From NCBI GenBank assembly GCA_021844725.1, contig JAKBSX010000087.1, positions 1 through 8,334 on the forward strand: DNA of 8,334 nucleotides, given 5' to 3'. The DNA comes from Actinomycetes bacterium (lineage in GTDB: Bacteria; Actinomycetota; Acidimicrobiia; Acidimicrobiales; Acidimicrobiaceae). This document shows positions 1,245-8,217 of the stretch, piece after piece. The notes beneath the pieces were generated by a model that searched no databases, had not been told where the DNA came from, and saw only the letters and a list, made by a program, of their open reading frames with translations. A program made the translations under genes and the position numbers. How positions within the stretch are numbered: position 1 is the first letter of the stretch; every line of letters starts with the position of its first letter.

Positions 1245-2570
1245 TTGGAACCCATTTCGCTGATTCCGTCGGCAAAACGGCTCATAAAGTCCCTACGAGA
1301 CATGGGCTACGACTTTGCCCAAGCCGTCGCGGACGTCGTTGACAACTCAATTGAGGCTGGTGCAACCGTGGTTGCTATCGACGTTGAATTCGAGGGAGAT
1401 GATTCTTGGGTACGAATTGTGGACAATGGACACGGGATGACTCCCGAAGGGCTCAGAGAAGCGATGAGGTACGGATCTGAGCGGGATTATGAGGACGACG
1501 ATTTAGGTAAATTCGGTTTGGGCCTGAAAACGGCATCGATGAGCCAATGTCGGTGCCTGTCAGTTGCAAGCCGATGGAACCCACAGCGTGCCGACATCGC
1601 TGCGTACTCATGGGATCTCGATCATATTGAACATCGCAATCGGTGGGAAATCCTTCCAGTTGACGGAAATATAAGCCAGCTACGCCAACCCCTAAAGGAA
1701 CACCCCGGGACTGTGGTCTTGTGGCGTCGCCTCGACCGTATTTTGGGCTACAAACACCCGTACGGAGAAGCCGCAAGGAAGAGTCTTTTCCAGATCTGCA
1801 GAGAGATTGAAATCCACCTCGGAATGGTGTTTCACAGATTCCTCTCGGGTGAACATGAGAAAAAGAAGCTAAAACTACTTCTGAATGGCAATGACATCAA
1901 GCCATGGGATCCGTTCTGTCGCCTCGAGCCCAATACGAAAGCGCTGCAGGAAATCACACTCCCTATTGAAGACAACGGGGAGTCCGGAACTGTAGTCCTG
2001 CAACCTTATATTCTGCCCGCACAATCAAACTTCAGCACTCCGGAGGCCTTTAGGCTCGCGGCGGGACCCTCCGGCTGGAACCAACAGCAGGGCTTCTACA
2101 TATATAGGGCCGGGCGAATGATTCAGAGCGGAGGCTGGTCCAATCTACGAGCCCGGGATGAACACACCAAGCTCGCACGAATTTCCGTTCGCTTTTCTCC
2201 AAACTTGGATGAGGCCTTCAAAATCAACGTCGCTAAGATGCGAGTGCAGATGCCTGCTGCAATTCGTGATCGCGTTCGTCAAGAAACTTCAACCGTCACA
2301 AAGTTAGCTAGGGGCGTGTACGATCATAAGACGAACCGCGCCAACCCTCATGGGCAAAGCAGGTCCACCAGTGAAGCGCAGTCCGGTAGCCGCGCTTCAC
2401 AGAATTCAACCTCAACGGAGTTCTCAGGTGGATTCAATTCCTCTCCAAAAGTAATTCCAATTAGCGAAGCACGTTTCACCTTGGAAGAGTGGTCATACCG
2501 CCTCCTTGCTGTTGCTGAAGAGCATGAGAAACCCTTAGTATCGGCAATTTTGGGGCGGCTCCAGAGTTGA
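1245..2570 (+). CDS. GHKL/MORC-like ATPase (HSP90-like ATP-binding fold)
   Basis: This 441-residue protein begins with a GHKL (gyrase-HSP90-histidine kinase-MutL) ATPase domain. The N-box is ADVVDNSIEA (residues 29-38) with Asn34 as the expected Mg-binding residue. Asp30 sits where many relatives have the catalytic Glu. The ATP-lid motifs are DNGHGM (60-65) and LGKFGLGLKTAS (87-98). The middle (about 180-350) fits the S5-like transducer domain of MutL/MORC proteins. It is followed by a Ser/Thr/Asn/Gly-rich linker (about 360-405) and a short helical C-terminus ending in ILGRLQS. In this family ATP binding drives dimer closure, often as a clamp on DNA. As first gene of an operon with a Z1 motor and a PD-(D/E)XK protein, it is probably the ATP-driven core or sensor of the effector complex (inference). 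It acts in the cytosol. Initiation at TTG may limit its expression despite the strong SD. The ATPase fold is certain, the role is inferred. Confidence 0.9.
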   Translation: MEPISLIPSAKRLIKSLRDMGYDFAQAVADVVDNSIEAGATVVAIDVEFEGDDSWVRIVDNGHGMTPEGLREAMRYGSERDYEDDDLGKFGLGLKTASMSQCRCLSVASRWNPQRADIAAYSWDLDHIEHRNRWEILPVDGNISQLRQPLKEHPGTVVLWRRLDRILGYKHPYGEAARKSLFQICREIEIHLGMVFHRFLSGEHEKKKLKLLLNGNDIKPWDPFCRLEPNTKALQEITLPIEDNGESGTVVLQPYILPAQSNFSTPEAFRLAAGPSGWNQQQGFYIYRAGRMIQSGGWSNLRARDEHTKLARISVRFSPNLDEAFKINVAKMRVQMPAAIRDRVRQETSTVTKLARGVYDHKTNRANPHGQSRSTSEAQSGSRASQNSTSTEFSGGFNSSPKVIPISEARFTLEEWSYRLLAVAEEHEKPLVSAILGRLQS

Positions 2571-2589
2571 CGGAGGACACAAAGCGACG

Positions 2590-5247
2590 ATGACGGACGA
2601 ACAAAGCTTAGCAATGCGGACGGTGCGGTCCATGCTAGACCTGGGTCACCCGCTGGAGAACGTGCTCACAAGCGAATTGATTCCTAGCCATCTTCGAAAT
2701 TTCGTAAGAGATCAGCTTGCGCGCGAAGAGAATTTCATTCTTACACCTGCCACAACTCTTGTGGCCGATCGCGGGAAGAGCGACTGGACAGCGTCCTTGG
2801 ATAGGTCGCATTGGCATTACTGGCCAACCTTGCGACAGTTTCTGATTACCAAGAAGAAGTGGGACAGCTTGGCAATTCGCTCGCTAGAGGATAGCTCTGA
2901 TCGAGTACTGCGTTTGCTTGAATCTCCTGATATAGAATCGTTTGACGTCCGGGGTCTGGTTCTCGGATATGTTCAGAGCGGCAAAACTGCCAACTATACA
3001 GCTGTAATAGCTAAAGCGGCGGATGCCGGATTTCGCCTGGTTATTGTTCTCTCGGGCATAGACAGAGGCCTCAGACGACAAACTAATATACGCTTGAAAC
3101 GTGAACTCGTTGGACATGTTGATGGACGATCTTCATCAGTTCGGATGCCACCCATTGGGCTGCAATGGCACGAATTCACAACGGACGACCTGCATGGGGA
3201 CTTTCAACCAGGCAATGCTAACCACGCAGCGCTACAGGGTTCCCAGCCTGTCCTTCTTGTCGTAAAAAAGAACGGAGATGTTTTGCGACGCCTACTTGGC
3301 TGGTTGGACTCCTGTCCAATTGAGACTCGCAGAGCTCTTCCGACACTCATCATCGATGACGAAGCTGATCAGGCAAGTGTCGACACGAGAGGATCATACC
3401 AGCGGGAAGATGATCAAATCGATGACGACTATGAACGTCCCTCTCCAATCAACGGGTTAATAAGAGAACTTCTGAAGAAATTTCAGAGAATTTGCTATGT
3501 TGCTTATACGGCCACGCCATTTGCGAACATTCTTATCCCACACGACAAATTCGATCCTTCAGTTGGCAACGACCTTTACCCTAAGGACTTCATTGTTGAT
3601 CTCCCGAAACCGATCGGCTATTTCGGAGCCGAAGAGATATTCGGAAGATTCGACTCAAACGCCAGCGAAGAAGTCGGCGGCCTCAATGTAATTCGTCAGG
3701 TTTCAGATGAGGATTTGGTAACTCTAGAACTGGGTCAGATCCCGGACTCACTCGAAAATGCAATCCTCGATTTCGTGCTTGCTGGTGCAGCCCGCGCACA
3801 ACGTGGCGACTCGTTGCAGCCGTCAACAATGCTCGTGCACACCAGCCAGAGCATCGGAGTTCAGTCGGGATTAAGACAAGAACTTGCTCGAAAGTTTTCC
3901 GAACTTCGAGACGAGTGGAGGTATCAACGAAGCCACGGCATTGCTGAATGCTTCAAGAAACGCTGGGATGAAGGCTTCCGGCCCGTGACCAGATATCGGC
4001 ACCCGGATTTGGACGTCGCATTCGATCTGGTTGAGCACTTCATCGGCCCATTCATGGAAGCAGTTCAGGTAAAGGAAATCAACAGTGAAACAGGCGACGT
4101 TCTCGACTATGAGCGGGAGCCGTCCTTGAAGGCGATCGCTATCGGAGGAAACAGACTCTCTCGGGGATTAACCCTCGAAGGCCTGACGGTCAGCTACTTC
4201 ATTCGTAGAAGTGCCAGCTACGACACTCTCATGCAAATGGGGCGATGGTTTGGGTTCCGGAGAGGGTACGAAGACTTAACCCGGATATACACGACTTCAG
4301 AGTTGGAGGGATGGTTCAGTGATCTTGCAGCTGTCGAATACCGCCTCCGGGAAGACATCTCGATGTATGAAAGCCAAGGACTGACTCCACACGAAGTTGG
4401 GGTTCGCATCTGGCAACATCCCACGATGCAAGTGACCAGTCGCCTGAAACGTCGCTTCGCAACTGAAACAATCATCCGTCAAAGCTACTCGCAATCTCTG
4501 GAGCAGACTTTCAAGTTCCCATTTAATCGTCCAGAGGACTTGGCGCAACAAGTCGAGTTAAACCGACTTCAAGCATCGAACCTGGTAGCGACCCTGGGCA
4601 GGCCCAGCGAGTCCTGCTCAGACAAAAGTGGGCCGGCTTGGATGGGGGTCGATGCTGATGTTGTGCTGAACTTTCTGAGCAATTTCACCATCGATCCAGA
4701 GTCTAGGACTATTTCTATTCCACTAATTATCGCCTACATAGAGCGGCTTCGCGATTCAGGAGAGTTGACCGAATGGACGGTTGCAGTACGCGGCAGAAAA
4801 ACCTTCGAGCCCGACTTGGGGATTGCCGAGTGGGTTAACGTCGACGGATATACCGTCCATCAAATAGCTCGTTCGCGAATCACAGGCACAAACTCTCTAG
4901 GCGTTATCACCAGCCCTGAAGACGAGACTGTAGGCCTTGGAGATCGGCAAGCCGAAGTCAGAGAAATCGTAGAACGTGCTACAGCAGAGGGCAGAACGCT
5001 GAGCATCGGAGCTACTGCCAGAGAACTACGCCCGGCGACGGAAGGATTGCTATTGCTGTATCCTATCAGCAAGAATTCCGGAGTAAATCTCTCTTCAGGC
5101 GGAAAGAGGCGCCGGCTATACGACGATCCCAAGAACCCGCTATCTAAAGATCTCATTGGACTCGCGATTTCATTTCCAAAATCCAACCTCAGTCAGCCAC
5201 TGGATGCCTATCTCGAGGGCTCAGTTGGGTGGAGACCGGTTGCATGA
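2590..5247 (+). CDS. Z1-domain superfamily II helicase-like ATPase
   Basis: This 885-residue protein has a clear Z1-type ATPase architecture. Walker A is GYVQSGKT (126-133), followed by the Z1-typical TANYTAVIAKAADAGFRLVIVL. Walker B is LIIDDEAD (253-260), and motif III is YTATPFANIL (306-315). The second RecA-like lobe carries LVHTSQS (415-421), GGNRLSRGLT (519-528) and QMGRWFGFR (549-557), which includes the motif VI arginines. The first 120 residues and the last 300 are accessory regions of unassigned function. Proteins of this family are predicted DNA translocases or helicases found next to MORC-like ATPases, PD-(D/E)XK proteins and DNA methyltransferases. The ATG lies 19 nt after the upstream stop. 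The best SD (GGAGG, 2572-2576) is 13 nt from it, which is long, and no better in-frame start is near. The stop overlaps the next start as ATGA, so the two are probably translationally coupled. All core motifs look intact. Confidence 0.92.
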   Translation: MTDEQSLAMRTVRSMLDLGHPLENVLTSELIPSHLRNFVRDQLAREENFILTPATTLVADRGKSDWTASLDRSHWHYWPTLRQFLITKKKWDSLAIRSLEDSSDRVLRLLESPDIESFDVRGLVLGYVQSGKTANYTAVIAKAADAGFRLVIVLSGIDRGLRRQTNIRLKRELVGHVDGRSSSVRMPPIGLQWHEFTTDDLHGDFQPGNANHAALQGSQPVLLVVKKNGDVLRRLLGWLDSCPIETRRALPTLIIDDEADQASVDTRGSYQREDDQIDDDYERPSPINGLIRELLKKFQRICYVAYTATPFANILIPHDKFDPSVGNDLYPKDFIVDLPKPIGYFGAEEIFGRFDSNASEEVGGLNVIRQVSDEDLVTLELGQIPDSLENAILDFVLAGAARAQRGDSLQPSTMLVHTSQSIGVQSGLRQELARKFSELRDEWRYQRSHGIAECFKKRWDEGFRPVTRYRHPDLDVAFDLVEHFIGPFMEAVQVKEINSETGDVLDYEREPSLKAIAIGGNRLSRGLTLEGLTVSYFIRRSASYDTLMQMGRWFGFRRGYEDLTRIYTTSELEGWFSDLAAVEYRLREDISMYESQGLTPHEVGVRIWQHPTMQVTSRLKRRFATETIIRQSYSQSLEQTFKFPFNRPEDLAQQVELNRLQASNLVATLGRPSESCSDKSGPAWMGVDADVVLNFLSNFTIDPESRTISIPLIIAYIERLRDSGELTEWTVAVRGRKTFEPDLGIAEWVNVDGYTVHQIARSRITGTNSLGVITSPEDETVGLGDRQAEVREIVERATAEGRTLSIGATARELRPATEGLLLLYPISKNSGVNLSSGGKRRRLYDDPKNPLSKDLIGLAISFPKSNLSQPLDAYLEGSVGWRPVA

Positions 5248-6242
5248 TACAAATTCCTGATGAGGTGTGGCTAAAACTCGGATCCGAGCAAAGGCGCGAT
5301 ACATCGCTTGTTGCCAGGATTGCTCTCCCAGCAATTGACTCTCGAGTTCTGGGGGCGATTGATTCGGAGGGGCGCCGTCATGTTCTCATCGCTCTCAAAC
5401 ACGATGATGAGGGATTGGACGATTCCCAGAGCAGGGGTATCTCTGTAAGAACTGGCCTGCTGAGTAGACAGAACCAAGACGAAGAGCGATTTATTGATCT
5501 TTTGTGTCTGGATCATAGCGGACACTCTGCCTTGGATATTATTGGTGGAGAGATCGCCGAACGACTGTCACGTGGAATCGAATCCCCGAATCAATGTGTA
5601 AGTCGAGTTCTTTCCAAATGGCGTCGCTTCTGGGGAAATGTTCCGAAAAATCTGCTCCCGGAGGAAAAGCAGATAGGACTTGTAGCCGAGCTCTGGTTTC
5701 TGCTGTTCTGGCTCATCCCTCGAATCGGCCCCGAATCGGCTCTCACATGGCGAGGACCCTCAGGGAGCAGGCACGACTTCGAAAGTACCCACCATTCGGT
5801 AGAGGTCAAAGCAACAACCTCAACAAGAGGTCCAATACACCGAATCACCAGTCTCTCCCAGCTGAGCCCACCAGAGAACGGCCAGTTAATGCTGTTCAGC
5901 CTTCAACTGAGACGGGAGGGAGGAGCAACCGTTACCCTACCCACCCTAATAGCGCACATACAGGGGTTGCTAAAGAGTACAACCAGATTACTGGACCACT
6001 TTGAAGAAATGCTCCAAAGAATCGGCTATTCACCCTTCCACGAAGCCGATTACGAACACGTGAGATGGAGAATTCAAGAACAAAAGCTATTCATCGTAAA
6101 TCAGGATTTCCCACGAATTACGATCGAAAGTTTCGGGGCCGGCATTCCAGGCGGAGTCGAATCCGTCAGCTACGAAATCAATCTTTCTGCATGCGAACAT
6201 TTGTGTATAGCTAAGGCGCCTTCGGACTCCTTCCCGTATTGA
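5244..6242 (+). CDS. PD-(D/E)XK nuclease-like protein (DUF4420 type)
   Basis: This 332-residue protein matches the PD-(D/E)XK motif family often found beside Z1 and MORC-like ATPases. The nuclease signature is readable: GLVAELW with Glu149, then RHDF with Asp178, then VEVKATT with Glu187 and Lys189, giving D-x8-E-x-K. The flanking family landmarks WRRFW, LTWRGPSGSRHDF and ITSLSQLSPP are also present. A longer start is possible at GTG 5229. ATG 5244 is preferred because it overlaps the upstream TGA as ATGA and has a GGTGGAG sequence (5227-5233) 10 nt upstream. The probable role is metal-dependent DNA cleavage as the effector of the operon (inference); the family is known by motif more than by biochemistry. 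Its 3' end overlaps the 3' end of vsr on the other strand by 32 bp. Length is normal for the family and nothing looks broken. Confidence 0.88.
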   Translation: MIQIPDEVWLKLGSEQRRDTSLVARIALPAIDSRVLGAIDSEGRRHVLIALKHDDEGLDDSQSRGISVRTGLLSRQNQDEERFIDLLCLDHSGHSALDIIGGEIAERLSRGIESPNQCVSRVLSKWRRFWGNVPKNLLPEEKQIGLVAELWFLLFWLIPRIGPESALTWRGPSGSRHDFESTHHSVEVKATTSTRGPIHRITSLSQLSPPENGQLMLFSLQLRREGGATVTLPTLIAHIQGLLKSTTRLLDHFEEMLQRIGYSPFHEADYEHVRWRIQEQKLFIVNQDFPRITIESFGAGIPGGVESVSYEINLSACEHLCIAKAPSDSFPY

Positions 6243-6654
6243 TAGGCTGCGGCCTTAACAAGCCAAGGACGCGCTTCCGGAGCTTAACCAGATCGCGGGT
6301 CTCACACTCCCAAATAATTATCTGCTGCCAACCTTGAACTTGAAGCTCAATTGCCACCTCGGCATCTCTCTGCATATTCTTTGCGAATTTCTTCTGCCAG
6401 AATTCAGTGTTGCTCTTTGGGACATATGCAAACGGGCAATGCTGGTGTCTATGCCAGAAGCATCCATGTACAAATATAGCCGCACGGTATTTTGGCAAAA
6501 CGATATCAGGCTTGCCGGGAACATCCCTTCGATTCAACCTGAAGCGAAAGCCTAGCCGGTGAAGCATAGATCTGACAACGAGTTCTGGACCAGTATTCGA
6601 CTGACGAATCTGAGACATGTTCCAACTTCGTCGTTCTGAACTAATGCGATCCAT
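6211..6654 (-). CDS. vsr: Very short patch repair (Vsr) DNA mismatch endonuclease
   Basis: Vsr nicks DNA 5' of the T in T:G mismatches that arise when 5-methylcytosine deaminates, starting very short patch repair. The 147-residue protein is a full-length family member. It has WNMSQIRQSNTGPE (11-24), PGKPDIVLPKYR (46-57) with the metal-binding Asp50, and FVHGCFWHRH (61-70) with His63 and His68. EFWQKK (84-89), NMQRD (93-97) and IWECE (114-118) follow. Cys65, His70 (or His72), Cys73 and Cys117 line up with the structural zinc site of the E. coli enzyme. An internal Met13 exists, but family length and the RSWNM alignment favour the start at 6654. A GAAGAG sequence lies 8 nt upstream of that ATG. 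The gene follows the methyltransferase by 12 nt, as expected for a Dcm-Vsr pair, and its 3' end overlaps the convergent nuclease gene. Confidence 0.96.
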   Translation of the reverse strand: MDRISSERRSWNMSQIRQSNTGPELVVRSMLHRLGFRFRLNRRDVPGKPDIVLPKYRAAIFVHGCFWHRHQHCPFAYVPKSNTEFWQKKFAKNMQRDAEVAIELQVQGWQQIIIWECETRDLVKLRKRVLGLLRPQPINTGRSPKAP

Positions 6655-6666
6655 GGGCGATACTCT

Positions 6667-8217
6667 TCACGCGCGATTTAAAAACAGCGTCGAGATAGAC
6701 TTCGCTATGGCGAGCGCCATAAGGGGAGGAACTGCATTTCCAACCTGCACATATTGGGCTGTTCTGGGTCCTGTAAAGAAATAATTATCCGGGAACGTCT
6801 GTAGGCGTGCTGCTTCTCGTACCGTAAAGCTTCTTACCTGCTTAGGATCGGGATGAATATAATAATGACCATCCTTCGATATGTGTGACGTAACTGTTGT
6901 CGCAGGACGATTCCACGGTTGAACCCGGAAGCGGTCAAGAAACATCTTTTGATTCGTAACTGCCTCTGCCACGTTTCGGTGATCAGGCAAAAGATCAGAA
7001 GGGAAATCTGCCAGTTTTGGCGACGTTCCGATCGCAGCTGCGAAACAGGCGGCATAAAAATAACGGTACAAATCTTCTGCGATATGGGCCCGGGAAGCGT
7101 GGTTACAAACACCTCTCAGCTGGTCGTCGAGAAACCAGTCGCCCCGATATGAAACGCGGGGCGTACATGGTATGAACTCGGCTCCTCTTCCAACTGTCGG
7201 CACGCGCAATGAGTTGATGGCGTCCTTAGCAATTTCTGCCATACGGGGCGGTCCAATCTTCTTGATCCGCTTGAACCAACGACTCGATTTTGCATCAGAC
7301 AGCACCTTGAGCCATTGTTCTCCACTGTCCTCACTGTCGGTGACACCACTTCTAAGCTTGGGCAAGCTTTTCAATACTTTGTCAATGGAGACCGGCTCCG
7401 ATAACGGCAAAGTTGGAGGTGAACGATGGTCGAAGTCATCTCTGACGCCAACGATGATCACGCGATGACGAGCCTGAGGAACGCCATGCTGTTCAGCACG
7501 AAGAATAAAATCGCTGTCTTCAGGTTCTCCAGTATTTCTCCTTGGGGATAAGGAATATAGAGAGTAGCGGTGCCTCTGTCGACCGGCGGTAAGGTTGATA
7601 TCAAAAGAATCTGCGGGAGCCTTCAGATCCTTCAATATCCGGGCAAAGATCGGATTGTCTTTGGGATCTGGCTTCGACGATAGCAACCCCTTAACGTTTT
7701 CCATAACAAAGACTGCTGGCCAGAAGTTCGCGATTATTCGCAGGTACTCCCTATACAGAAAGTGCTTCTCGTCCTTCTCCGGAATGTAGCCTTTTTTATT
7801 TTTATTTCGTGATCTTCCTACTAAGGAATACGCTTGGCACGGAGGTCCGCCGATAAGTACCCAATCTTTGTCAGCACCGATGGCAGCGCGGATTCGCGTA
7901 GAAACCAAAGACCATGACTCCTCCCCCAACGTCTCTTGGATTGCCTCTTCCCTTGCGCCTGCCGCCTGTTTGGGATGCGCGCTGAACAAATCTTCGATGG
8001 TTCTCTCGCCACGCAGAACTTCGTAATATGCTTTCGGGACATTGTTTTGATCGAACTGCCTGAAAAATGCACGCAGCTGAAGCGTGCGGTGCGCGTGTTC
8101 TTCTTTCTCAATGGAGAGCTTAATCTTGAATACACTTTGGGCGCTTTCATCTCTCAAAGAGGAAAAGCCCTCACCTAGCCCTCCCGGACCAGCAAATATA
8201 TCAATTATCGGAATCAT
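6667..8217 (-). CDS. C5-cytosine DNA methyltransferase (Dcm family)
   Basis: This 516-residue enzyme transfers a methyl group from S-adenosylmethionine to carbon 5 of cytosine in a specific site. The canonical motifs are in order: I, DIFAGPGGLGEGF (6-18); IV, GGPPCQAYS (123-131) with catalytic Cys127; VI, ENV (173-175); VIII, QARHR (248-252); IX, RPATTV (437-442); X, QVGNAVPP (491-498). The target-recognition region (about 260-435) is long, and about 60 extra residues sit between motif I and the DW preceding motif IV (about 60-118), so it is larger than a minimal Dcm. The target site cannot be read from sequence. Motif I is so close to the N-terminus that ATG 8217 must be the start. Vsr follows directly, which supports a shared transcript. 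Its probable role is to protect host DNA from the effector arm encoded on the other strand (inference). Confidence 0.96.
   Translation of the reverse strand: MIPIIDIFAGPGGLGEGFSSLRDESAQSVFKIKLSIEKEEHAHRTLQLRAFFRQFDQNNVPKAYYEVLRGERTIEDLFSAHPKQAAGAREEAIQETLGEESWSLVSTRIRAAIGADKDWVLIGGPPCQAYSLVGRSRNKNKKGYIPEKDEKHFLYREYLRIIANFWPAVFVMENVKGLLSSKPDPKDNPIFARILKDLKAPADSFDINLTAGRQRHRYSLYSLSPRRNTGEPEDSDFILRAEQHGVPQARHRVIIVGVRDDFDHRSPPTLPLSEPVSIDKVLKSLPKLRSGVTDSEDSGEQWLKVLSDAKSSRWFKRIKKIGPPRMAEIAKDAINSLRVPTVGRGAEFIPCTPRVSYRGDWFLDDQLRGVCNHASRAHIAEDLYRYFYAACFAAAIGTSPKLADFPSDLLPDHRNVAEAVTNQKMFLDRFRVQPWNRPATTVTSHISKDGHYYIHPDPKQVRSFTVREAARLQTFPDNYFFTGPRTAQYVQVGNAVPPLMALAIAKSISTLFLNRA

Follow-up and report, generated by a model that had tools for sequence, protein, structure and literature searches.

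Do the five genes carried by contig JAKBSX010000087.1 of an Actinomycetes bacterium assembly (GCA_021844725.1), analysed here over its 8,334 nucleotides (the window), make up a single restriction-modification (R-M)-like system and, if so, is it of a kind already described? The first-pass annotation had reported an intact five-gene cassette in convergent operons. We confirm this observation: a clamp ATPase, a DNA motor and a nuclease face a cytosine methylase and its Vsr repair partner, with the two operons on opposite strands (Table 1). Taken together, sequence comparisons confirm the set as a predicted R-M-like system that is ordinary in kind, little studied and part of a family already described.

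Table 1 Genes of the five-gene set, with the matches that identify them.
Feature	Position	Strand	Matches
MORC-type GHKL ATPase, MzaB-like	1245..2570	+	PF13589 1.9e-29, PF02518 8.9e-9; MzaB 258.6 bits
DNA motor, MzaC-like	2590..5247	+	MzaC 490.8 bits
DUF4420 PD-(D/E)XK nuclease, MzaD-like, candidate target-reading subunit	5244..6242	+	MzaD 84.4 bits
Vsr mismatch endonuclease	6211..6654	-	TIGR00632 144.6 bits (cut-off 97.85); PDB 1cw0 4.7e-30
C5-cytosine DNA methyltransferase, DrmMII-like	6667..8217	-	PF00145 1.2e-41; TIGR00675 127.2 bits (cut-off 100.65); DrmMII 6.2e-94

The first-pass annotation had staked its reading on these genes co-occurring in other genomes, and they do: the R-M-like gene set is kept across phyla, a close branch carries the same five genes as the window, and a C5-methylase lies no more than 7 kb away in 36/37 survey loci and in 6/6 close-branch loci. 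In many loci the methylase is found immediately upstream of the MORC gene on the same strand. The S5 motif of the window ATPase, GFYIYRAGRMI, agrees with the published MORC signature (PMC2292703) and is matched by pattern in 40/41 compared loci, while the motif DTLMQMGRWFG is present in the window and a looser version of it matches 36/41 loci. The motor domain is CglI-type and the nuclease fold is DpnI-like. The families and folds of the five proteins fit their putative roles as clamp ATPase, motor, nuclease, methylase and Vsr.

Convergent operons on opposite strands might instead be independent neighbours within a defence island, an MZA-like effector beside an orphan methylase-Vsr pair. That methylase group and side differ between relatives, and that some loci (L017 and L018) carry a separate restriction enzyme adjoining the methylase, is consistent with such an explanation; the regularity with which a methylase lies close by, often just upstream of MORC in the same orientation, makes it unlikely. 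It is more improbable still that the genes form a repair or DNA-structure system, pairing a MutL-like ATPase with Vsr, rather than serving defence. In favour of the repair reading, MutL is the best match of the MORC protein among solved structures, Vsr is a mismatch endonuclease, and possible recruitment to repair was noted by Iyer et al. in 2008 (PMC2292703).

How does this R-M-like set relate to known systems? The first-pass annotation had called such genes little characterised and linked by comparative genomics. Little studied they are, but the prior art is closer than it claimed. The operon type was named in 2008 as the third type of Iyer, Abhiman and Aravind (PMC2292703), from which we saw no difference; the window looks like a further member. 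In 2022 Miller et al. (PMC9523054) named a similar set, their putative system type I, stated to have six genes, three additional, a likeness that holds at the level of its description rather than of its members. Among the components of MZA (mzaABCDE), which the same paper describes as validated, are a sigma factor (MzaA) and an AIPR protein (MzaE). The window's MzaB-, MzaC- and MzaD-like genes follow the MZA order, but score below the equivalog cut-offs (850, 1500 and 420 bits, respectively). Neither the AIPR protein MzaE nor the sigma-factor protein MzaA had a match in the window or in the six close loci; MzaA is present in 4/43 other loci (those over 200 bits) and, according to PMC9523054, is often absent from relatives. 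By these comparisons, the window set belongs to an AIPR-less branch. The proposal of a complete defence system stands in part: conservation across phyla and fitting families and folds support an R-M-like set, whereas its working as a defence is a prediction, and the absence of both MZA components from all 7 branch loci leaves its completeness in doubt.

CglI/NgoAVII differs in having three genes (methylase, R and motor), with no MORC named, and an R subunit that combines a PLD nuclease with a B3 domain; neither domain was found in the window's five proteins. The best PADLOC model for the window methylase is DrmMII of DISARM, which hints that methylases may be common to different defence types; the other four proteins matched no DISARM model at E <= 0.1.

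As the first-pass annotation had stated, no separate specificity subunit is visible among the five genes. By analogy with R.CglI, DUF4420 is the likeliest target reader, with mixed evidence from covariation: it tracks the methylase over all 41 loci (partial r 0.321, p 0.001), and the tracking in nine separately fetched loci was 0.573. One target sequence may be common to methylase groups 1-3.

The variation among relatives shows that the methylase is swapped between effector backbones, mostly along with Vsr. We say "mostly", and not that the two always move as one unit, because the Vsr of L001 departs: this locus has a group-2 methylase, yet its Vsr is closer to that of the window (58%) than to that of L004 (36%). 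Such exchange, together with the branch placement, the motor domain type and the nuclease fold, is what the window adds to the family. Vsr-like proteins of L004 (12661-13143) and L087 (3870-4316), whose methylases fall in the same group, lack several of the Cys/His positions at which other Vsrs agree with the E. coli protein. In L018, a methylase resembling Dcm of E. coli (52% identity) and a Vsr (1036-2737) lie beside an MZA-like set and adjoin an annotated type II restriction enzyme, which this methylase may serve. To the left of the cassette, the window carries an IS21-family transposase remnant (306-1009), identified by NCBIfam over 306-791 and, judged by eye, likely continued by a second frame to about 1009.
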